DNA of 64,000 nucleotides from positions 1 to 64,000 of the forward strand of contig CAIZNN010000102.1 in NCBI GenBank assembly GCA_903934285.1. The letters run 5' to 3'. This document shows positions 2,636 to 15,495 of this stretch, piece after piece; the stretch's first letter is position 1; the number at the start of each line of letters is the position of its first letter. Below the pieces are notes generated by a model. The model was given only the letters and a program-made list of their open reading frames with translations, had not been told where the DNA came from and did no database searches. Both the position numbers and the translations under genes were made by a program. The stretch comes from Akkermansiaceae bacterium. GTDB lineage: Bacteria; Verrucomicrobiota; Verrucomicrobiia; Verrucomicrobiales; Akkermansiaceae.

Positions 2636-2756
2636 TCTATCTGCAAAGGAGGTCCCCCATGAATCGCGCTTCAGCCCAGCATTGTTTCTTCCCATTCCGC
2701 GCCAAGGGGGAATTGCATGCAGTCCCGGCCATGAATTCAACAGGAGGCCAACGCAC

Positions 2757-3494
2757 GTGAAAACCCTGCTCGTGACCTCCCGGGTGACCTTCGTGCCGGA
2801 GAACTATGGCCGCCTTGTCGCGGGGCTTGCTAACAACCCGCATGTTGCGGCGGTGCTGTTTCTGGAGAACCGTGGCCTGCTAACTCCCGCCATGGGAGCG
2901 GGTCTGTGGCTCTCGCGGCTCGCCCCTGGAATCGGCGCCGAGCTCGTCAGGAACACCCTTTCCTCGCTCCACGATCCGCGCGAACACGCGATGCGCGCGG
3001 CGGGAAAATGCGTCTTTCATGCCTCACACATCAACGCGCCAGAGACCATCGCCATTCTAGCAAGGTTTGATCTGGTCATCAACGCCCGCACCCGCTTCAT
3101 CTATGGCGGGACCGCCTTGGCGGCGCCCCGCATCGGCTGTGTCAACATCCATCATGGTCTGCTTCCCGATCAACGGGGCCTGTTGTGCGACCTCTGGGCG
3201 CAAGCCGAAGGCCGGCCGACCGGCTTCACCATCCACCGGATGGCCGCCGAGCTCGACGCCGGCGAGATCATCGCACGCCACGAAGTCGAGGTCGTCCAGG
3301 GCCGCCGCTTCGTCGATCATGCGTTGGCGAGTTCAATCGAAGAACTCAGCGCCATCGAGCAGGTGCTGGACCGGGTTGGCTCCGCCGGCAGGATTGAGGG
3401 GATTCCTAACACGAAGACGCCAGCCACGCGCTATTACAGGACCCCCGGCTTGGCCGAGATGGTGGGCTTCAAGAAGAAAGGCATCCAGCTATGA
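2757..3494 (+). CDS. Formyltransferase-family protein (MTF/GART-like catalytic domain)
   Basis: GTG start preceded by AGGAGG; CVNIHHGLLPDQRG...GFTIHRMAAELDAGEIIARHEVEV keeps the N-x-H...D formyltransferase signature. Confidence 0.8.
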   Translation: MKTLLVTSRVTFVPENYGRLVAGLANNPHVAAVLFLENRGLLTPAMGAGLWLSRLAPGIGAELVRNTLSSLHDPREHAMRAAGKCVFHASHINAPETIAILARFDLVINARTRFIYGGTALAAPRIGCVNIHHGLLPDQRGLLCDLWAQAEGRPTGFTIHRMAAELDAGEIIARHEVEVVQGRRFVDHALASSIEELSAIEQVLDRVGSAGRIEGIPNTKTPATRYYRTPGLAEMVGFKKKGIQL

Positions 3495-5209
3495 CATCAG
3501 AGCGTATCGGCTTCCAGCCCGGCAGCAGCACTGGCAACAACGTCATCGCATACATTGACGCGCACCTGCGGGACTTCCCCGGGCGCGTGGCCCTGCGGTG
3601 GGCGGCCCCCGGCGCGATCAATGACTGGGACGGCAACGCGCACAGCAGCCTTGCACACCAGGAGATCAGTTATCTGGACTTCGGGCTGCGCATACGGCAC
3701 TTCGCCCAGGGTTTGCTGGATCTTGGAATTGTGCATGGCGACCGGGTCATCATCTTTCTGCCGATGGGTCTCGACATGTACACGGCGATGTTTGCCGTGC
3801 AACGCATCGGAGCCATTGCGGTGTTTCTCGATTCGTGGGCCCGCGCCAGTCACCTCGGCGCCAGCGCCGCTTGTGTCGAGCCCACGGCCATGATCTCAGC
3901 CCAGCCCGCCTTCGAACTGGTGGCCCACGTGCCCGCCTTTGCCCGGCTGCCGCTGCGAATCCTTTGGGGACCCGGCGATGGCTTCGCCCACCACTTCGAC
4001 GCGCTGCTGGCCACCCCGGGCGAAGCTGCAATCGCGCCGGTGGCAAGTGAGACCACCGCGCTCATCACCTTTACCACGGGCAGTTCCGGCACACCCAAGG
4101 GTGCCAGGCGCACCCATCGATTCCTCTCGGCACAGCATGAGGCTTTGGACAAGCTCATCCCCTACACCGCTGGCGACCGGGACCTCCCGGCATTTCCAAT
4201 CTTCTCGCTGAACAATCTGGCCGCCGGGGTCACCAGCGTGCTGCCGGCGCTCGATCTAGCAAAGCCATCGGAGCGCGACGCCGCCATTCTGGTGTCGCAG
4301 ATTCTCTCACAAAATGTCAGCTGTGCGACGCTGTCGCCCTCGATGCTGGCGGGTGTTGCCAGGCACTGCCACCAGACCGGCACACGGTTGCCGGGGCTGC
4401 GCCGCGTCGTCACCGGTGGCGCGCCGATTTCCAAAGACGACGTGCTAAGCTTTGTTGCTATCGCAGGCAATGCGGCGCTGTGGATTTTCTACGGCTCGAC
4501 GGAGGTCGAGCCGATGGCGCACATTGAGGGTCACGCGTGGCTCGCACAGAAGCCCCGCTGCAGTGATCCGGAGATGGTTGAGGAGGGCGTCAATGTCGGA
4601 CAGATTGACTCTAACCTAGAGTACAAGTTCATCCGGATCTGCACCGGCCCGATCGATCTCCAAACGACGCCTTGGAGCGAGATTGAACTCAAGCCCGGTG
4701 AGATCGGGGAGTTTATCGTGAGCGGAGATCATGTCTGCCGCGACTATTACAACAACCCGGAGGCATTCCTCCAAACCAAGATTGCCGGCGCGGACGGGCG
4801 CGTCTGGCATCGCACCGGGGATCTTGCCTACACCGACGCCGCGGGTGAACTCTGGGTCGTGGGGCGCATCCACAATGCCATTGAACGCGCCGGCAAGTAT
4901 GTGTTTCCGGTACGCCCGGAAGTTCTTCTCAAGCGCATGCCATTTGTCGAGCAAGCGGCCTTTGTCGGTCTGCCAGATGCCCGCTTGGGCGAGAAGACAT
5001 GCGTGGTGCTCAAGCTCAGGGATGGTGCCGGACCTGATAGGGTGGTCAGTGAAGTGCGGCGCATCTTCGGAAAAAACCACATCCCTGTCGACGAAATCCA
5101 CTTGGTGGCGAGCATCCCGCTGGACCCGCGCCACCACTCCAAAGTCGAGTATGCGGCGCTCAGGGACGCACTTCGGGCCGGCCACTCAACACCCCTCCTT
5201 ACAGCATGA
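3491..5209 (+). CDS. AMP-dependent acyl ligase, OleC-like
   Basis: TFTTGSSGTPKG, YGSTEVEPM, HRTGDLAY, GRIHNAIERAGKYVFPVRPE; C-terminal IPLDPRHHSKVEYAALR resembles OleC-type ends; ATGA overlap with upstream gene. Confidence 0.8.
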   Translation: MTSERIGFQPGSSTGNNVIAYIDAHLRDFPGRVALRWAAPGAINDWDGNAHSSLAHQEISYLDFGLRIRHFAQGLLDLGIVHGDRVIIFLPMGLDMYTAMFAVQRIGAIAVFLDSWARASHLGASAACVEPTAMISAQPAFELVAHVPAFARLPLRILWGPGDGFAHHFDALLATPGEAAIAPVASETTALITFTTGSSGTPKGARRTHRFLSAQHEALDKLIPYTAGDRDLPAFPIFSLNNLAAGVTSVLPALDLAKPSERDAAILVSQILSQNVSCATLSPSMLAGVARHCHQTGTRLPGLRRVVTGGAPISKDDVLSFVAIAGNAALWIFYGSTEVEPMAHIEGHAWLAQKPRCSDPEMVEEGVNVGQIDSNLEYKFIRICTGPIDLQTTPWSEIELKPGEIGEFIVSGDHVCRDYYNNPEAFLQTKIAGADGRVWHRTGDLAYTDAAGELWVVGRIHNAIERAGKYVFPVRPEVLLKRMPFVEQAAFVGLPDARLGEKTCVVLKLRDGAGPDRVVSEVRRIFGKNHIPVDEIHLVASIPLDPRHHSKVEYAALRDALRAGHSTPLLTA

Positions 5210-6108
5210 AGCGGTGGTGGATATTCATCAGGGAGCGCTTCGCGCCGGCCACACACGTGCCGATGATCGCAAGCTTCACGCTTGCCAACGGCTGCCTGGG
5301 GCTTGCGATGTTAGCAATGCCGGTGCTGAGCCGCAACCCTGAGGCCCTCCACCGGCTCCCGTTAGCCATGGCCGTTGCGCTGGCGTTTTTTCTCAGGCTG
5401 CGGATCTTCGATGAGATCAAGGACTATCAAACCGACCTGAGGGTCAATCCCGCCCGGCCCCTGGCCAGGGGACTCATCAGGATCGCCGGGGCGCAGCGGG
5501 TGATTGTCGGGCTTTGCGCATTTGAAATCCTGGCTCTTTCCCTGCTGGCACCCATGCTTGCCTGCAGCCATCTGCTTGCCATGGGCTACAGCCTGCTGAT
5601 GTACCGGGAGTTTTTCATCGGCAGCTATCTGCGGCCGCATCTCACGACCTATGCCATTCTCCACACATTTGTGTCGGTATTGAGTGCCGGCACTGTCGTG
5701 AGTGTGGTGACCGGTGTGCCATTCTGGGGGTTTTCATCCTCGATGTGGTTGCTGCTGTTGGCGAACTGGGGGTATTTCAATCTGTTTGAATTTGCCCGCA
5801 AGACCTTTGCCCCTGCCGAGGAGCGCGCGAATGTTGAAAGCTACTCGAAGGTTTTCACCGTTGTCGGGGCGGTCGCCCTGAGCCTGAGCCAGGCCATCGT
5901 GCCACTGCTCATCGTGCACCATGTCCTGGGCGCCGGACTAACGCAACTTGACAACAGCATTCTGGTGGGCTTGCTTGCCATCGTCGTCGCCCCGGCGCTG
6001 GCGTTTGCAATCCGGCCTAACACCCTTGCCGCGAAATGGTTTCGTGGGCTTGTCGGAATCTATCTTATTTTCGGATATCTGGCGCTGGCAGCAACCCTGG
6101 CCTTTTAG
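5206..6108 (+). CDS. UbiA-like prenyltransferase-family integral membrane protein
   Basis: Multiple TM segments; RIFDEIKDYQTDLRVNPARPLARGLI resembles the UbiA Asp-rich motif; ATGA overlap with upstream gene. Confidence 0.7.
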   Translation: MKRWWIFIRERFAPATHVPMIASFTLANGCLGLAMLAMPVLSRNPEALHRLPLAMAVALAFFLRLRIFDEIKDYQTDLRVNPARPLARGLIRIAGAQRVIVGLCAFEILALSLLAPMLACSHLLAMGYSLLMYREFFIGSYLRPHLTTYAILHTFVSVLSAGTVVSVVTGVPFWGFSSSMWLLLLANWGYFNLFEFARKTFAPAEERANVESYSKVFTVVGAVALSLSQAIVPLLIVHHVLGAGLTQLDNSILVGLLAIVVAPALAFAIRPNTLAAKWFRGLVGIYLIFGYLALAATLAF

Positions 6109-6117
6109 AAACCACAA

Positions 6118-8805
6118 ATGATCGTCAAAAAATCCAGCATTGAGGTCTTTGCGAAACGTGAGGCCGGAGGCAAGGGATACAACCTCTATCTTCTGAGCCA
6201 AATGGGGTTTCCCGTCCCCGCCTGGTGCGTGCTTGGCAAGCGCGTCTTTCAACAATTCCTGGATACAACCGGCACCGGCCCCAAGATCGATGCTGTCATC
6301 GACCGTCTGCAATCCTCTCAGATCGATGCCTTGGCGGCATCCCGGGAGATCGAGGAGCTATTTGTGGCGACAGAGCTTCCCGCCGCCGTGCAGGCCGTGG
6401 TCCGGCAGGGCTATGATGAGGTGCAACGCGGGCTGGTGTCGGTGCGGTCGTCGGCCGCCGATGAGGATGGCCAAAAGCATTCGTTTGCCGGCCAGCTTTC
6501 GAGTTATCTATATGTGGACAGCCTCGCCGATGTCGAGCGCTACGTCAAACTGTGCTGGGCCTCGGGCTATTCGCAGCGCTGCCTCTGCTACCGGCAGGAA
6601 CACAACCTCGCCCTCAACGGGGCGTGCGTCTCCGTCGTGCTGCAACGCATGATCGATCCGGACAAATCGGGGGTGCTTTTCACCTGTGATCCTGTGGCAG
6701 AGCACCTCGGGGAATATCTCATCTGCGCCGTTTTCGGCGTGGGCGAAGGGCTGGTGTCAGGCGGCCTTGAAGCCGATAGCTATTGGATCGACGCCGACAC
6801 CGGCACACTCAGCCGCAAGCAGGTTCCTAACAAGGAGGCCGCCTTCCGGCGGGCGGCGTCGGGCCAATGTGAGAGCGTGCCGCTTGCCGGGACGCAGCGG
6901 GATTGCGACGTGCTGAGCCAGTCTGAGCTCGCAGCGCTCCATGACCTCGGCGCGAGGATTCTCAATGCGTACAATTGGCCGCAGGACGTCGAGTGGGCGA
7001 TCGCGGATGGCAGAGTCCATGTGCTGCAGACCCGTCCTGTGACCACGCTGAAGAAGGATCTTCTGGGATACCTCAATCTATGGGACAACTCCAACATCAT
7101 TGAATCGTACGGCGGGCTCACCTCGCCCCTGTCGTTCAGCTTTGCGCTGGGAAACTACAAGGCGGTCTACATCCAGTTTTGTGAGGTTCTCAATGTTCCG
7201 CGGGAGGTCATCAAGGACATGGATGACTACCTGGGGAATATGCTTGGCTGTCTCCATGGGCGGGTGTATTACAACCTCTACAACTGGTACAAGCTCGTGG
7301 CGATTCTGCCCGGCGCGCAATCCAACCGTGGATTCATGGAAACCATGATGGGGGTGTCCGAACCCCTATCCGGTGAGGTCGCAGCCCGCATCAAGCCCCA
7401 TCCGGGCTGGCATACGGCCAAAGGCAGGTTGCTTCAGCTCAAGACCGGGCTGTCCTTTCTGTGGTATCACTTCACGATTCAAAAGGTGGTCGATAACTTC
7501 CTCGCCAGCTTCGGGCGCGACTATCTGAAGTACCGGAACCACGACTACGCACACATGCGCGGCGACCAGATCCACCGCATTTATGTGGAAATGGAGCGCA
7601 ACATGATTGGCCGCTGGAAGGCGCCGATCATCAACGACTTCCTGTGCATGGTGCATTTCGGGCTGCTCAAAAAGCTCACCGGCAAGTGGTTGGCCACGCT
7701 TGATCCGACGATTCTCAACGACCTGCTTGCCGGCGAGGGCAATCTTGAGAGTGCGGAGCCCACCAAGTCACTCATCCGCATGGCCGGCTTCATCAGCGCG
7801 CGGCCCGAACTGCGCGCGCTCATCGAAGAGACCGCCGCGGCGGATTGCATGGAGGCCTTGAACCAGTCACCTCATCAGGAGTTCTTCTCAAACGTGCTCG
7901 CCTATATCGACCGCTTTGGCTTCCGCTGCATGAATGAGATGAAGCTGGAGGAAATCGATCTCTACACCGACACCTCCTATCTATTCACCTGTCTCAAGAA
8001 CTATTTGCGCTCGGGGACCATCGATCTCGATGTGATCGAGACGCGCGAGAAGGCCTTGCGCGAGGGGGCTGAGCAAGTGCTTGCCGGGCAGCTCTCCGGC
8101 CTCAAAAAATTCGTTTACCGGTGGTCGCTGCGGCATGCCCGCAAGGCGGTCAAAAACCGCGAGAACACGCGCTTTGCACGAACCCGGATCTATGGTGTCG
8201 CCCGCTCGATGTTCCAAGCCATCGGCGCGGATCTGGCCGCGCGCGGAATCATCCCGGCACCGCGGGACATTTTTTTCATGACCCTCGCAGAGGTTGGCGG
8301 GGTGTTTGACGGCACGCTTGCCAGCTTTGATCTGGCCGGTCTCATCGCCCTGCGCAAGGCGAGCTATCAGCGCTTCGAGAGTGAGGAACCCAAAACACGG
8401 GTGGTGAGCCGTGGTCCCGTGTATTGGACCAATCCCCTTCTTGTTAGCGACGATGAGCCCCCGGCTGTTGAGACGATGGACCCCGACGCCGACCTGCAGG
8501 GACTGCCGTGCTGCCCGGGCATCGTCGAGGGCATTGTGAAAGTCGTGATGAGTGGCCAGGACGATTTGCAACTCAACGGCGAGATTCTGGTTACCCCGCG
8601 CACCGATCCCGGCTGGGTCCCGCTGTATCCGAGCTGCAGTGCGTTGTTAGTCGAGCGGGGAAGTCTGCTGTCGCATTCCGCCATCGTCGCGCGGGAAATG
8701 GGCCTGCCAGCGATCGTCTCAATCAAGCATCTCACAAAAACCCTGAAAACCGGCATGCGCGTGCGCATCGATGGCAAGCGCGGCACCATCAAAATCCTGG
8801 CCTGA
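6118..8805 (+). CDS. PEP synthase / rifampin-phosphotransferase-like dikinase
   Basis: N-terminal PPDK ATP-grasp motifs (SVRSSAADEDGQKHSFAGQ, DVEWAIADGRVHVLQTRPV) and C-terminal phosphohistidine domain (ERGSLLSHSAIVAREMGLPAIV); no C-terminal PEP-binding TIM barrel follows. Confidence 0.85.
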   Translation: MIVKKSSIEVFAKREAGGKGYNLYLLSQMGFPVPAWCVLGKRVFQQFLDTTGTGPKIDAVIDRLQSSQIDALAASREIEELFVATELPAAVQAVVRQGYDEVQRGLVSVRSSAADEDGQKHSFAGQLSSYLYVDSLADVERYVKLCWASGYSQRCLCYRQEHNLALNGACVSVVLQRMIDPDKSGVLFTCDPVAEHLGEYLICAVFGVGEGLVSGGLEADSYWIDADTGTLSRKQVPNKEAAFRRAASGQCESVPLAGTQRDCDVLSQSELAALHDLGARILNAYNWPQDVEWAIADGRVHVLQTRPVTTLKKDLLGYLNLWDNSNIIESYGGLTSPLSFSFALGNYKAVYIQFCEVLNVPREVIKDMDDYLGNMLGCLHGRVYYNLYNWYKLVAILPGAQSNRGFMETMMGVSEPLSGEVAARIKPHPGWHTAKGRLLQLKTGLSFLWYHFTIQKVVDNFLASFGRDYLKYRNHDYAHMRGDQIHRIYVEMERNMIGRWKAPIINDFLCMVHFGLLKKLTGKWLATLDPTILNDLLAGEGNLESAEPTKSLIRMAGFISARPELRALIEETAAADCMEALNQSPHQEFFSNVLAYIDRFGFRCMNEMKLEEIDLYTDTSYLFTCLKNYLRSGTIDLDVIETREKALREGAEQVLAGQLSGLKKFVYRWSLRHARKAVKNRENTRFARTRIYGVARSMFQAIGADLAARGIIPAPRDIFFMTLAEVGGVFDGTLASFDLAGLIALRKASYQRFESEEPKTRVVSRGPVYWTNPLLVSDDEPPAVETMDPDADLQGLPCCPGIVEGIVKVVMSGQDDLQLNGEILVTPRTDPGWVPLYPSCSALLVERGSLLSHSAIVAREMGLPAIVSIKHLTKTLKTGMRVRIDGKRGTIKILA

Positions 8806-8842: not shown

Positions 8843-9451
8843 TCAGGCGGTGGTGCCGCGGACAAAGATTTCCACGGTTTCGCGGATCCAGCCGTCGCGG
8901 TCCAAGGCCGACAAGCCGGAGCTGCGGCGCAACAAGCCGCCCATCAAGGTGGAGGTGAGCACCTCGGCAAAGGCGATCGAGTTGAGGTCGGCGCGCACCG
9001 CGCCGTCGTGCTTGCGCTGCTCGAGGTAGGCCGCGATGCTGCGATGGAACGGCTCTAACACATCACCGATCAATTCCTTGGCGAGTGTCGGGCGGCGCCG
9101 GCTTTCGCCGATCAACGCCCGGGCCATGCCCTCGCAGCGTTCCATGGCCGCGTTGTAGGCGCGCGCATAGCGGCCCAGATCTTCGCACAGGTCGCCGCTG
9201 AAGCAACCCTCGCAGTCACGCAGCGCCAAGAATTCCTTGGCGGTTTCCTGCACCACCGCGGCCAACAAGTTTTGTTTCGACTCGAAATGGCGGAACAAGG
9301 TGACCTCGTTGCAGCCGGCGCGGTCCGCGATGCCGCGCGTGGTGGCAGCATCGATCCCCTTGTCGCCGAATTCCGTCTGCGCCGCCTCCAGCAAGCGCTG
9401 GCGCATGGCGGACGGTTCGCTGGGTTTCTTGCTGGGAAGGTCGGTGCTCAC
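8843..9451 (-). CDS. TetR family transcriptional regulator
   Basis: RQRLLEAAQTEFGDKGIDAATTRGIADRAGCNEVTLFRHFESKQNLLAAV HTH; divergent from RND operon; GTG start at 9451 preferred over TTG at 9493. Confidence 0.85.
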   Translation of the reverse strand: MSTDLPSKKPSEPSAMRQRLLEAAQTEFGDKGIDAATTRGIADRAGCNEVTLFRHFESKQNLLAAVVQETAKEFLALRDCEGCFSGDLCEDLGRYARAYNAAMERCEGMARALIGESRRRPTLAKELIGDVLEPFHRSIAAYLEQRKHDGAVRADLNSIAFAEVLTSTLMGGLLRRSSGLSALDRDGWIRETVEIFVRGTTA

Positions 9452-9464
9452 GCCCGCAAGTTTT

Positions 9465-9482
9465 TGCAAGTAATCGCTTGCA
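9465..9482. promoter_or_regulatory. Candidate TetR operator palindrome TGCAAG-TAATCG-CTTGCA
   Basis: Perfect 6-bp arms with 6-bp spacer between the divergent TetR gene and efflux operon. Confidence 0.5.
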
Positions 9483-9516
9483 TACAAGTCCAAATTTACC
9501 TAAATCCGCTGCGGTC

Positions 9517-10926
9517 ATGCCGAACTGTCAGTTAATCCGCTATGTTTTGAGTTGCTGCGCATTGGTGGTGGTGAGCGGGTGTGGGCCGGTGGGGCCGACC
9601 CACGCGGTGCCTGCGATGGGGTTGCCGGCGGCATTTTCGCGCGGCGGGGTGCAATGGAAGCGCCAAACTATGGGCAGCCAGCCGCGGCCGCAGAAGTGGT
9701 GGCGCCTCTATCAGGATGGGACGCTCAATGGGTTGGTGGAGCGGGCGTTGGTGATGAATCAGGAACTGGCGGGCGCGGCGGCGCGGCTGCGCCAGGCGCG
9801 CGAGCTGAGCAATGCGACCCGCTCGCAATATTTTCCCGACGTCAATCTGGGGACCTTGGCGGAGCGCTCGAAGATCCGTTTCCGCGGGCCGGGCGGCGGC
9901 GGCGTGATTCAATCCGACAATTTTGCGGTGCCGGTGGATTTCCGTTATGAACTCGACGTCTGGGGCAAAGTGAGGCGGCAGGTGGAGTCGGCGGAAGCGT
10001 TGGAAGCGGCGACCGGGGAATCGCTCAACGCGTTGCGACTGAGTGTGGCGGGGGAAGTGGCACAGACCTACTGGGCGCTGCGGGCGGTGGACGCCAACCG
10101 CGCGGTGCTGAGCCGCACCTTGGAGATTCGCCGCAAGGCGCTCGAATTGCTCACCAAGCGCCGCGATGTGGGCAACATCAGCGGCCTCGACCTGTCGCGC
10201 GCCGAGACGGAAGTCGCCAGCGCCGAAGCCGACCGGATCCGCCTCGACCAGGACCGCCTGATATTGGTCAATGCGCTGGCGGTGCTGGCTGGCGCGACGG
10301 CCACCGGTTCCGCGGTGGCCGAGCAAACCGACTTGCCGAAACCGCCGGCGGTGCCGCTGGCGGTACCGTCCGAGGTGTTGCGGCAACGTCCGGACATTCG
10401 TGCCGCCGAGCGCCGGGTGGCCGCCGCCAACGCCGACATCGGGGTGGCGTGTGCGGCGTTTTACCCGTCGTTTTCAATCAATGCCTCCAGCGGTCTTGAT
10501 GCCGCCCGGCTGGCTGACCTATGCGATGCCTCCTCGCTGGTGTGGTCGATCGGCGCGAGCGCGCTGACGCCCATCACCAGCCAGAAATTGCTCAATGCCC
10601 GGCGCGCCGCGGCGGTGGCGGCCCATGAGGCGGCCAGCGCGGAGTACCGCCAGGCGGTGCTGGAATCGATACGCGAGGTGGAAAACGCGCTGCAAGGCGG
10701 TGCCATTCTGGAGCGGCGCCAACTCGCGCAAGACCAGGCGCTGGCCGCCGCCCGCACCACCTTTGAGCTCTCCGCCAAACGCTTCAAGGCCGGACTGGTC
10801 AGCTTCCTCGACGTGGTGGACGCCGAACGCACCCGGCTGGACGCCGAGAAAGCGGCCAACGCGGTGCGCGCCGAACGCCTCGCCGTTTCGGTCTCCCTCA
10901 TCAAGGCGTTGGGCGGGGAGTGGTAG
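9517..10926 (+). CDS. RND efflux outer-membrane lipoprotein (NodT/OprM family)
   Basis: Lipobox-like VVSGCGPVG; WWRLYQDGTLNGLVERAL; RQRPDIRAAERRVAAANADIGVACAAFYPSFSI. Confidence 0.9.
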   Translation: MPNCQLIRYVLSCCALVVVSGCGPVGPTHAVPAMGLPAAFSRGGVQWKRQTMGSQPRPQKWWRLYQDGTLNGLVERALVMNQELAGAAARLRQARELSNATRSQYFPDVNLGTLAERSKIRFRGPGGGGVIQSDNFAVPVDFRYELDVWGKVRRQVESAEALEAATGESLNALRLSVAGEVAQTYWALRAVDANRAVLSRTLEIRRKALELLTKRRDVGNISGLDLSRAETEVASAEADRIRLDQDRLILVNALAVLAGATATGSAVAEQTDLPKPPAVPLAVPSEVLRQRPDIRAAERRVAAANADIGVACAAFYPSFSINASSGLDAARLADLCDASSLVWSIGASALTPITSQKLLNARRAAAVAAHEAASAEYRQAVLESIREVENALQGGAILERRQLAQDQALAAARTTFELSAKRFKAGLVSFLDVVDAERTRLDAEKAANAVRAERLAVSVSLIKALGGEW

Positions 10927-10973
10927 GAAGACTCAAGACCCATGCCCCAAACCTCCTTTCTAACAAACATATC

Positions 10974-12149
10974 ATGAACAGAGCAACACTCCTCACCCTC
11001 GCGGGATGCCTGGTCGGCGGGACAATTCTAACAGGATGTGGCAAGCAGGGCGGGCCCGGCGGGCCGCCGCAGGGCGGGACACCGGAAGTGTCGGTGGTGA
11101 CCGTGCAATTGCAGCGCGTCGCGCTGAGCACGGAATTGCCCGGGCGGGTCTCGGCATCCCGCACGGCGGAGGTGCGGCCCCAGGTGGGAGGCATCATTCA
11201 GGAGCGCTTGTTCACGGAAGGATCCGACGTCAAGGCCGGGGCGGTGCTCTACCAGATAGATCCGGCGAGCTATCAGGCGGCTTATGACGGCGCCACCGCG
11301 GCACTGGCCAAGGCGGAGGCCAATGTGGCGCCGCTGCGGCTGAAGGCCGAGCGCTTCAAGGAATTGCTAGAGAGTGAAGCCGTCAGCAAGCAGGATTATG
11401 ATGACGCCTCGGCGGCGCAGAAACTGGCGGAGGCCGAGATTAACCTGGCCAAGGCGGCGCTGGAGACCGCCCATATCAATCTGGCCTACACCAAGGTGAC
11501 GGCGCCGATTTCCGGTCGCATCGGCCGCTCTGCGGTGACCGACGGCGCGCTGGTGACGGCGAGCCAGCCGGTGCCGCTGGCCACCATCCAACAGCTCGAC
11601 CCGGTGTATGTTGACGTCACCCAGTCGAGCAGCGAAGTGCTGCGCCTCAGGCGGGCGTTGGAAAGCGGCCAGCTCAGCAGCAACGGCGGTCAGGCCAAGG
11701 TGCAGCTGCTGTTGGATGACGGCTCACAATATCCCGAGCCGGGCACGCTCAAATTTTCCGAGGCGTTTGTAGATCCCGGCACCGGCTCGGTGACGTTGCG
11801 CACGCTGTTTCCCAATCCGAAGTTGCTGCTGTTGCCGGGGTTGTTTGTGCGCAGCGTGCTGGAAGAAGGGATCAAGGAGCAGGGGATTTTGGTGCCGCAG
11901 CGCGGGGTGACCCGCAATCCGGCCGGCCAGGCCATGGTCATGGTGGTCGGTGCCGAGGAAAAGGTTGAAGCCCGGGTGATCAAGGCCGATCGCACCGTCG
12001 GCGACGACTGGCTGGTGCAAGACGGTTTGCAGGCGGGCGACCGGGTGATTTTGGAAGGGACTCAAAAAGCGCGGCCGGGCACGGTGGTCAAAGCCGTGCC
12101 CTTCGGTGCCAAGCCCGCGCCGGCTCCTGCTGCGGCCGAAAAACAGTAA
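10974..12149 (+). CDS. RND efflux periplasmic adaptor (AcrA-like)
   Basis: Lipobox LTGCGKQ; PGRVSASRTAEVRPQVGGIIQERLFTEGSDVKAGAVLYQIDP; AYTKVTAPISGRIGRS. Confidence 0.92.
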   Translation: MNRATLLTLAGCLVGGTILTGCGKQGGPGGPPQGGTPEVSVVTVQLQRVALSTELPGRVSASRTAEVRPQVGGIIQERLFTEGSDVKAGAVLYQIDPASYQAAYDGATAALAKAEANVAPLRLKAERFKELLESEAVSKQDYDDASAAQKLAEAEINLAKAALETAHINLAYTKVTAPISGRIGRSAVTDGALVTASQPVPLATIQQLDPVYVDVTQSSSEVLRLRRALESGQLSSNGGQAKVQLLLDDGSQYPEPGTLKFSEAFVDPGTGSVTLRTLFPNPKLLLLPGLFVRSVLEEGIKEQGILVPQRGVTRNPAGQAMVMVVGAEEKVEARVIKADRTVGDDWLVQDGLQAGDRVILEGTQKARPGTVVKAVPFGAKPAPAPAAAEKQ

Positions 12150-12327
12150 CATCGCTTCGTTGCTTGGATGAACTACAAAACCAAGAAACCACTGAGGCCA
12201 CTGAAAGCCGCTGATAACACTGTTAGTTCCTTATTTTCCAGTGGTTTTCAGTGTTTCAGTGGTCAACCTGCCCCCTCTCACAAAACAAAGTCCGCTCCAA
12301 CGGCTTCAAGGTAACAACTTTCCCGCC

Positions 12328-15300
12328 ATGCCTCGCTTTTTCATCAACCGCCCGATCTTTGCCTGGGTCATCGCCATCATGATCATGCTGGCGGGCTTGC
12401 TGTCCATCAAGACGCTGCCAGTTTCCCAGTACCCGCCGATCGCCCCGCCTCAGATCACCATCAACGCCATGTACCCGGGCGCCTCCGCCCAAACGGTGCA
12501 GGATACCGTCACCCAGGTGGTCGAACAAAAACTCAACGGCATCGACAACCTGATCTATATGTCGTCGACGAGCGACTCGGCCGGGGCGGTGGCGATCAAT
12601 CTGACATTCAAGGCCGGCACCGACCCGAACATTGCGCAGGTGCAGGTGCAGAACAAGCTGCAGCTGGCCACGCCGCTGTTGCCCCAGATTGTCCAGCGCC
12701 AGGGCATCCAGGTGGTCAAGTCCACCAAGAACTTCCTGATCCTGGTGGGCCTGGTGTCCGAAGATGGCGCGATGGACCGCCATTCCCTAACCGATTACAT
12801 GGTGTCCAACGTCCAGGATATTGTCAGCCGGCTCGAAGGGGTGGGTGAGCTCCAGGTGTTCGGCTCGCAAAACGCCATGCGCATCTGGCTCAACCCGAAC
12901 AAGCTCAACAACTACCGCCTGACCACCAATGATGTGATTGCGGCGCTGCAGGCGCAAAACGCCCAGGTGTCGGCCGGCCAGTTCGGCGGCAGTCCCTCGC
13001 TGCAAGGCCAGCAGTTGAACGCCACCATCACCGCGCGCACCTTGCTGCAGACAGTGGAACAATTCGGCGCGGTGATCCTCAAGACGAACAACGACGGCTC
13101 CACCGTCAAACTCAGGGAGGTGGCCGAATGCAAGATCGGCACGGAGAATTACGACGTGCTGGGGCGTTACAAGGGCAAGCCGGTGGGGGCGATGGCCATC
13201 CGCCTGGCCGCGGGCGCCAACGCCTTGGACACCGCCAACCGGATCAAGGCGAAGATGGCGGAATTGTCGGGATTTTTCCCTGCGGGCATGAAAGTGGTTT
13301 ACCCCTATGACACGACGCCGTTCGTCAAGATCTCCATCCAGGAAGTGGTCCAGACCTTGGTGGAGGCGATCTGTCTGGTGTTCATCATCATGTTCGTTTT
13401 CCTGCAGAACATCCGGGCGACCCTGATTCCGACCATCGCCGTGCCGGTGGTGTTGCTAGGCACCTTCGGGGTGCTGTCGGTCTGCGGCTTTTCCATCAAC
13501 ACCCTGACCCTGTTTGCCTTGGTCATTGTGGTCGGGTTATTGGTGGACGACGCCATCGTGGTGGTGGAGAACGTGGAACGCATCATGAGTGAGGAAGGGT
13601 TGCCGCCCAAGGAGGCGACCATCAAGTCGATGGGCCAGATCACCAGCGCGTTGTGGGGCATCGCCACGGTGCTCACCGCGGTGTTCGTGCCGATGGCATT
13701 TTTCGGCGGTTCCACCGGGGTGATCTACCGCCAGTTTTCCATCACGATCATAGCCGCGATGATCCTCTCGGTGCTCATTGCCATGACCCTGACCCCGGCG
13801 CTGTGCGCCACCTTGCTCAAGCCGGTGGCAAAAGGCCATAGTGCAGGCGAAGCGGGCTGGTTCCGGGGGGGCTTCTACTGGTTCAATAAAGGGTTCAACC
13901 GGTGTGCCACCGGCTATCAGTCGGTTGTCGGCCGCTCGTTCAACAAGCCGGTGCGCTACCTGCTGGTCTATGGTGCCATTGTGGCGGCGATGGCGGTGCT
14001 TTTCGTGCGGCTGCCCACCGCGTTCCTGCCGGATGAGGATCAGGGGATCCTCATCTGTCTGGTCCAACTCCCTGCCGGGGCCACCCAGGAGCGCACCCTC
14101 AAGGTCGTCGAACAATTGGAACAGCATTTCCTGGTGCGGGAAGAAAAAGCTGTGGAGGCGGTCATCGCGGTGGCCGGCTTCAGTTTTGCCGGCCGGGGCC
14201 AGAACATGGGGCTGGCCTTTGTCCGGCTCAAGGATTGGAAACTGCGCAAGTCCCCCGAGCTGAAGGCCGCAGCCATCGCCGGCAGGGCCATGGCCGCACT
14301 CTCGCAAATCAAGGATGGCCAGGTGTTTGCCTTTTCGCCGCCGGCAGTCATCGAATTGGGCCAGGCCAACGGCTTTGACTTCATGCTGCAGGATCGCGGC
14401 GGCGTCGGCCATGACAAGCTCATGGCGGCCCGCAACCAGTTGTTAGGCATGGCGATGAAGAACCCGAAACTCATCGCGGTGCGACCTAACGGCCAGGAGG
14501 ACTCGCCGCAGTTCAAGCTGGACATCGATGATGTGCGGGCCGGGGCGCTGGGGGTCTCGCTCAACGACATCAACAATGTGCTGGCCACCGCGTGGGGCAG
14601 TTCCTACGTCAACGACTTCATTGAGAACGGCCGGGTCAAGAAGGTTTACCTGCAGGCCGACGCGCGGTACCGGATGCTGCCGGAGGACATCGCCAAATGG
14701 TATGTTAGAAACGGCCAGGGCGAGATGGTGCCATTTTCGGCGTTTGCCGGAGCCCGCTGGCAGTACGGCTCGCCGCGCTTGGAACGCTACAATGGCATCC
14801 CATCCGTGGAGATCATGGGACAGGCCGCGCCGGGCATCAGCACCGGTGAGGCAATGGTCGAAATGGAGAAGATGGCAGCCCAGCTCCCGCCGGGAGTGGG
14901 TTACGAATGGACCGGTCTGTCCTACGAGGAGAAGAAGGCCGGGGCACAAGCGCCGGCGCTGTATGCCATCTCGCTGCTGGTGGTGTTTCTCAGCGTGGCG
15001 GCTTTGTATGAGAGCTGGACCATCCCCTTTGTCAACCTGCTGATGCTGCCACTGGGCCTGGTGGGGGCGGTCACCGCGGTCACGCTGCGGGTGCTGCCCA
15101 ACGATGTCTACCTGCAAATCGGCCTGCTCACCACCGTCGGGCTTTCCACCAAGAATGCCATTCTCATCATCCAGTTCATCAAAGCCCAAATGCATGATGG
15201 CCATGAGCTGGTGGAAGCCACCCTCACCGCTGTTAGAATCCGGCTGCGCCCGGTGATCATGACCTCGCTGGCGTTCTTTTTCGGCACGCTGCCGCTGGCC

Positions 15301-15495
15301 CTCACCCATGGTGCCGGGGCGGCGGCACAGAACGCCATCGGCACCGCGGTGACCGGCGGGTTGCTTTCGGCCACTTTCATCGACCTGATTTTCATCCCGT
15401 TTTTCTTTGTGCTCATCTCGCGCCTGTTCGGGTCGAAGCCGCCGCCTGGCGCGGTGCCAACTGGCGGACTGGCCCCCACTGCGGCGGCCGGCTGA
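12328..15495 (+). CDS. RND efflux inner-membrane transporter (AcrB/HAE1-like)
   Basis: [43 protein letters not shown], long [21 protein letters not shown]. Confidence 0.95.

Follow-up and report, generated by a model that had tools for sequence, protein, structure and literature searches.

Phytol salvage in tocopherol synthesis employs a prenol kinase (VTE5), a phytyl-phosphate kinase (VTE6) and a UbiA-type phytyltransferase. It is this union of a kinase, a second phosphotransferase and a UbiA enzyme in one pathway that resembles the system described here; however, no homogentisate genes were recognised in our loci, the dikinase (DIK) presumably lies outside the VTE6 family, and the pathway studied here includes an acyl-adenylate ligase (LIG), a formyltransferase (FT) or a GNAT-like protein (GNAT), an HMG-CoA reductase (HMGR) and a DUF3419 protein. 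The core pathway of archaeal ether phospholipids is similar in that our UbiA-superfamily enzyme (UBI) is closest, by both profile and fold, to DGGGP synthase and that four dereplicated loci hold CarS-like and CDP-alcohol transferase genes as well as UBI, but the cluster showed no geranylgeranylglyceryl phosphate synthase, and the archaeal pathway is without counterparts of LIG, DIK, FT/GNAT, HMGR and DUF3419. The BtaA (DUF3419) family of BtaA/BtaB betaine lipid synthesis is represented in what we term module A of most lineages, where, in contrast to that synthesis, its partners are N-acylating, not N-methylating. In RPH-type dikinases a phosphohistidine passes its phosphate to small-molecule hydroxyls (PMC12167813); DIK shares with the RPH and HpeHI enzymes the ATP-grasp, middle and C-terminal phospho-histidine swivel domains and finds its best fold match among them, but it scores under the RPH cut-off and sits in a biosynthetic operon. 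The ebo operon, likewise widespread, with a UbiA-superfamily enzyme and an unknown product (PMC5133447), has nothing in common with our locus beyond that superfamily member.

The window, that is, the whole stretch of 64,000 nt analysed here, begins at base 1 of its contig (C102) and comes from a metagenome-assembled genome (MAG) of 4.8 Mb in 282 contigs (97% complete). A first-pass annotation had described a four-gene cassette in it. The open-reading-frame listing bore out the four adjacent frames at their proposed positions (Table 1), the ATGA overlaps between FT and LIG (3491-3494) and between LIG and UBI (5206-5209), and the 9-nt gap between UBI and DIK; the overlaps are compatible with a single transcription unit, as the annotation had supposed. 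The first start listed for FT is at 2628; the alternative GTG at 2757 lies 9 nt past an AGGAGG and is therefore plausible. Matches in a promoter scan were no more frequent than in shuffled sequence. The GC3 of the operon is below that of most of its neighbourhood. Upstream, the reverse-strand frame at 1206-2126 has the look of a damaged enzyme gene, and the stretch 2264-2635 looks broken, with a response-regulator receiver domain (2281 to ~2460) followed by unrelated sequence; no second copy of 2440-2660 was found in the window or in L041 (contig C211). Directly downstream of DIK, 8843-15495 holds a reverse-strand TetR gene adjoining a forward-strand outer-membrane/MFP/RND efflux set; these genes were rejected as members of the operon because TetR is convergent with DIK and by position belongs to the next unit.

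Table 1. Features of the FT-LIG-UBI-DIK operon (positions in the window).
Feature	Position	Strand	Evidence
Shine-Dalgarno-like AGGAGG, 5' of the FT GTG start	2742..2747	+	Read from sequence
FT, 10-formyl-THF-type N-formyltransferase, 245 aa	2757..3494	+	Pfam, motifs, PDB formyltransferases
LIG, acyl-adenylate-forming (ANL) ligase, 572 aa	3491..5209	+	Pfam AMP-binding and AMP-binding_C
UBI, UbiA-superfamily intramembrane transferase, 300 aa	5206..6108	+	Alignment, AlphaFold, Foldseek
DIK, RPH-type three-domain dikinase, 895 aa	6118..8805	+	Pfam, NCBIfam, Foldseek
Predicted catalytic phospho-histidine codon (His853) of DIK	8674..8676	+	Motif position; invariant in DIK alignment

FT yielded a Pfam Formyl_trans_N match (E 5.9e-13; 49 bits against a cut-off of 26), matches formyltransferases in the PDB and carries the motif LLPDQRG. 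The N-x-H...D signature ascribed to it earlier is kept as N130-I-H132 and an LDAG containing D167. Fmt, ArnA and the PRK07579 sugar N-formyltransferase were rejected as identities, the best score (47 against 238 bits) falling under the NCBIfam equivalog cut-offs. FT most likely transfers a formyl group, with an amine as the likeliest recipient, a slot filled by GNAT in other lineages. LIG matches AMP-binding (3e-39) with the C-terminal domain AMP-binding_C, and its reported adenylation motifs (TTGSSGTPKG, YGSTE, RTGD and HHSK) are present. The earlier label 'OleC-like' proved overstated: LIG reaches 210 and 188 bits against NCBI OleC cut-offs of 900 and 850. Judged from sequence, with its best NCBIfam scores under their cut-offs, LIG is a subfamily of its own, nearest to PRK09274/OleC. 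An OleC beta-lactone synthetase was discarded as its identity, since both curated OleC cut-offs are missed and no OleA/B/D set lies alongside. What recalls the OleABCD olefin/beta-lactone pathway is the resemblance of LIG to OleC and, in Bdellovibrionota, the fusion of LIG to an alpha/beta-hydrolase; however, that hydrolase has a serine nucleophile (GHSWGG) and is absent from the window, and no OleA was recognised.

The assignment of UBI to the UbiA superfamily of membrane enzymes was corroborated by structure prediction. The AlphaFold model (pLDDT 93.6) displays the multi-helix intramembrane UbiA fold; its best Foldseek match is DGGGP synthase (7bpu, E 9e-5), which is also closest by profile, and its 16 top-ranked matches, at E 9e-5 to 3e-2 and TM 0.49-0.67, all belong to the UbiA superfamily. 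No Pfam family was found at E 0.001, and an NCBIfam prenyltransferase match was weak (7e-11). Of the UbiA motifs NDxxDxxxD and DxxxD, the first is altered to DExKDxxxD (FDEIKDYQTD from residue 68 of UBI) and the second is replaced by E-x2-RK, both being invariant in 14 of 14 aligned sequences. Because the aspartate motifs are altered in this way (FDExKDxxxD; E-x2-RK), the donor of UBI need not be a prenyl diphosphate; the PRPP-using UbiA enzyme 8j8j is among its Foldseek neighbours. Plasmid carriage was rejected, with one weak match, to a gene annotated as a UbiA-family prenyltransferase.

DIK contains PPDK_N (2e-66) and PEP-utilizers (5e-23) domains. As first described, the phospho-histidine motif is kept (SHS, with His853 near the C-terminus, invariant across the DIK alignment) and the C-terminal PEP barrel is lacking: the phospho-histidine domain spans residues 820-889 of 895, and the protein ends directly after it. 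The architecture is that of the RPH type, with ATP-grasp, middle and C-terminal phospho-histidine domains and no PEP barrel. Foldseek aligned DIK over its whole length with rifampin phosphotransferase 5hv1 (E 4e-43, TM 0.49-0.52) at an rmsd of 13, as expected for a swivelling multi-domain enzyme, and its ATP domain with 5hv6 at a TM of 0.84-0.86 (normalised by target). Rifampin phosphotransferase proper (310 bits against the NCBIfam RPH cut-off of 999) and PEP synthase (PEP-binding barrel missing) were rejected as identities. DIK does pass the cut-off of NCBIfam NF004881 (1126 bits), a family named 'phosphoenolpyruvate synthase', a name without tested activity. That NF004881 and NF004883 give this name to barrel-less relatives of DIK is a likely source of wrong annotation and may mislead metabolic models.

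Queried with UBI, 241 genomes of the phylum, which we take to be Verrucomicrobiota as GTDB defines it, returned 18 matches, 14 of them strong, and the resulting loci added four families: HMGR, DUF3419, a dolichol/phytol-kinase-like membrane protein (DOLK) and GNAT. With the UBI alignment as query, species genomes yielded 406 confirmed relatives, the best 80 of which were used for loci; these derive from Bdellovibrionota, Pseudomonadota (including 11 Photorhabdus loci and two Marinobacter loci), Cyanobacteriota, Acidobacteriota, Planctomycetota, Gemmatimonadota, Bacteroidota, Spirochaetota, Omnitrophota and others. The pathway is spread over more than 10 phyla. Recurrence elsewhere, which the first-pass annotation had named as its own test, was found and goes beyond chance: FT, LIG, UBI and DIK occur together in 13 other loci, and LIG, UBI and DIK in many more. 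Profile searches of 78 dereplicated UBI loci detected DIK in 69, LIG in 59, DUF3419 in 48, GNAT in 38, HMGR and DOLK in 36 each and FT in 16 (one of these, L035, has a truncated contig on which 4.4 kb separate FT from UBI); among the 40 loci that reach 15 kb or more, DIK was present in 39 and LIG in 37. LIG, UBI and DIK are the core of the pathway, and the window has its conserved gene set and order (LIG-UBI-DIK plus FT or GNAT). The operon almost certainly belongs to this conserved pathway and represents its module B, made up of an N-acyl-transfer enzyme, LIG, UBI and DIK. The four-gene cassette accounts for half of a larger modular pathway. A search of the open-licence literature found no description of the cluster.

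Many unrelated bacteria carry versions of the pathway in which parts have been exchanged. FT and GNAT, never found in the same locus (0 of 78), are interchangeable N-acyl-transfer enzymes of the pathway; on the DIK tree their distribution needs two changes, and the window lies within a supported clade of FT-type loci. DUF3419 and CDP-alcohol transferase likewise never share one of the 78 loci, and CDP-alcohol transferase with CarS can replace DUF3419. Three kinase types occur, DOLK in 36 loci, APH in nine (mostly fused to or beside HMGR) and DAGK in six, with two types together only in L032. HMGR, DUF3419 and DOLK, found near UBI loci, make up module A; two genomes (G015 and G169) have HMGR-DUF3419-DOLK on one contig and LIG-UBI on another, and hence the pathway behaves as two modules. 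MMPL transporter genes adjoin the cluster in some lineages. A Photorhabdus locus (L087:9965-20149), with related versions in 11 Photorhabdus genomes, carries UBI, an HMGR-APH fusion, DIK, GNAT, LIG, CDP-alcohol transferase and a CarS-like gene in one run; the single run in a groundwater gammaproteobacterial MAG (L048:2925-13624) comprises HMGR-APH, a CDP-alcohol transferase-CarS fusion, FT, a hydrolase-LIG fusion, UBI and DIK.

Among the 241 genomes, pathway-class DUF3419 was present in 13 of 14 with UBI and 0 of 227 others (p 1e-20), and pathway-class HMGR in 9 of 14 and 0 of 227 (p 3e-13), p-values that are descriptive since the class borders (high-scoring for HMGR, middle-scoring for DUF3419) were placed with the data already in view, at gaps between the listed scores. 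Neither family showed an association with UBI in its other score classes in these genomes. Pathway DUF3419 (170-220 bits against >339 for a separate class) differs from BtaA/BtaB synthesis in score class as well. In the window's genome the pathway-class HMGR stands alone on contig C211 (L041:8702-10174) and reaches 561.7 bits against the pathway HMGR profile, compared with 73-82 for two Bdellovibrionota HMGRs, which lie on Bdellovibrio and Oligoflexus contigs beside genes resembling mevalonate-pathway kinases. Its HMG-CoA-binding residues are conserved relative to an HMGR of known structure, which suggests mevalonate as a building block of the product. The search of the window's genome for HMG-CoA synthase was negative; any HMG-CoA that is used there may therefore derive from leucine breakdown. 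Neither DUF3419, a further difference from betaine lipid synthesis, nor DOLK was found in this 97% complete MAG, where an assembly gap is possible. DXR of the MEP pathway is present, and a CarS match beside it on contig C87 was read as CdsA and not counted as a pathway gene. No HMGR was detected in Pontibacter, which has the cluster.

The earlier suggestion that these genes serve a small-molecule or lipid pathway is supported. The lipid-type partners that recur elsewhere (CarS, CDP-alcohol transferase, the BtaA family and an MMPL exporter), together with the likeness of UBI to DGGGP synthase, are best accounted for by an amphiphilic product. We put at roughly 45% the probability that the operon is module B of an undescribed pathway to a UbiA-assembled, N-formylated or N-acylated amphiphile (lipid), probably containing an isoprenoid. 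From the observed co-occurrence, gene order, part swaps, folds and motifs we infer substrates, an order of steps, a product and its export as follows. Module A would supply an alcohol, most likely mevalonate made from HMG-CoA by the pathway-specific HMGR, to be phosphorylated by a DOLK, APH or DAGK-type kinase, depending on lineage. DIK would then phosphorylate a hydroxyl or phosphate of the intermediate, with a swivel from ATP via phosphohistidine to substrate like that of rifampin phosphotransferase. In the membrane, UBI would link this polar acceptor to a prenyl (or alkyl) chain activated as the diphosphate, in the manner of DGGGP synthase; against this, the cluster revealed no prenyl-diphosphate synthase. 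LIG would turn a carboxylate into an acyl-AMP for coupling or CoA ligation, and FT would formylate an amine of the product, which GNAT would acylate in other lineages. Elsewhere, the polar head may come from the BtaA-like DUF3419 enzyme or from CarS and CDP-alcohol transferase, and adjacent MMPL genes suggest export in some lineages.

By analogy with phytol salvage (VTE5, VTE6 and a UbiA enzyme), the operon could instead serve a line of alcohol activation, a possibility to which we give a minor share. Here an acid would be activated by LIG and reduced to an alcohol (by HMGR or by Bdellovibrionota reductases), which DOLK, APH or DAGK would phosphorylate and DIK would convert to a diphosphate for alkyl or prenyl transfer by UBI. 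Seven Bdellovibrionota-type loci would suit such a line: each encodes C9, a protein that in part resembles an acyl-thioester reductase (PigE/AcACP_reductase matches) and shares no locus with HMGR, and in most of them an SDR (NAD_binding_4) occurs along with a DAGK-type kinase. So would the sequence signature of DOLK (D..A..G...G....KS.EGS), which we take to be that of CTP-dependent prenol kinases. However, the HMG-CoA-binding residues of the HMGR in the window's genome argue for mevalonate and not an allylic alcohol, and characterised RPH-type dikinases phosphorylate hydroxyls, and none is known to use monophosphates as substrates. In four Bdellovibrionota-type loci without HMGR (L055:1504-5584, L057, L069 and L070), a DAGK-like kinase, the NAD_binding_4 SDR and C9 were observed; C9 has 690 aa, no Pfam match and a PigE-like C-terminal part.

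It appears improbable that the pathway follows prodigiosin-type logic to a secondary metabolite that is soluble or pigment-like. DIK would then be a condensing ligase like PigC or RedH, forming a phosphate-activated C-C or C-N bond, and UBI would only decorate the product. Both PigC and RedH do match DIK over its whole length, and the Bdellovibrionota C9 resembles the N-terminal part of PigE, but the scores (350 bits for PigC, 372 for RedH) are far under the respective cut-offs of 1300 and 1350, and we rejected this identity for DIK; moreover, no pyrrole genes were recognised in the loci, and the CarS, CDP-alcohol transferase, DUF3419 and MMPL partners indicate a lipid. That the window holds a decaying or incomplete acquisition, with module B alone gained or kept beside damaged genes and the full product lost, is very unlikely: a genus-mate (G216) lacks UBI in the 241-genome search, DUF3419 and DOLK were not found in the genome, the upstream genes look broken and GC3 is low for the neighbourhood, but the four frames are open with intact catalytic motifs, a pathway-class HMGR is retained elsewhere in the genome, and G015 and G169 also have split modules.

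Taking the amphiphile reading further, we suggest with considerable reserve that the product belongs to an undescribed class of bacterial outer-membrane or exported lipids in which mevalonate or a polyol like it replaces glycerol, with an ether link made by the UbiA enzyme and an N-formyl or N-acyl group, and that it has spread horizontally through many phyla. If the proposed pathway is correct, a nameless product would be common to predatory Bdellovibrio, the nematode symbiont Photorhabdus, cyanobacteria, planctomycetes, acidobacteria and verrucomicrobia. The exchanges of FT for GNAT, of DUF3419 for CDP-alcohol transferase and among three kinase types would offer clear genetic handles on it, and culturable hosts exist.
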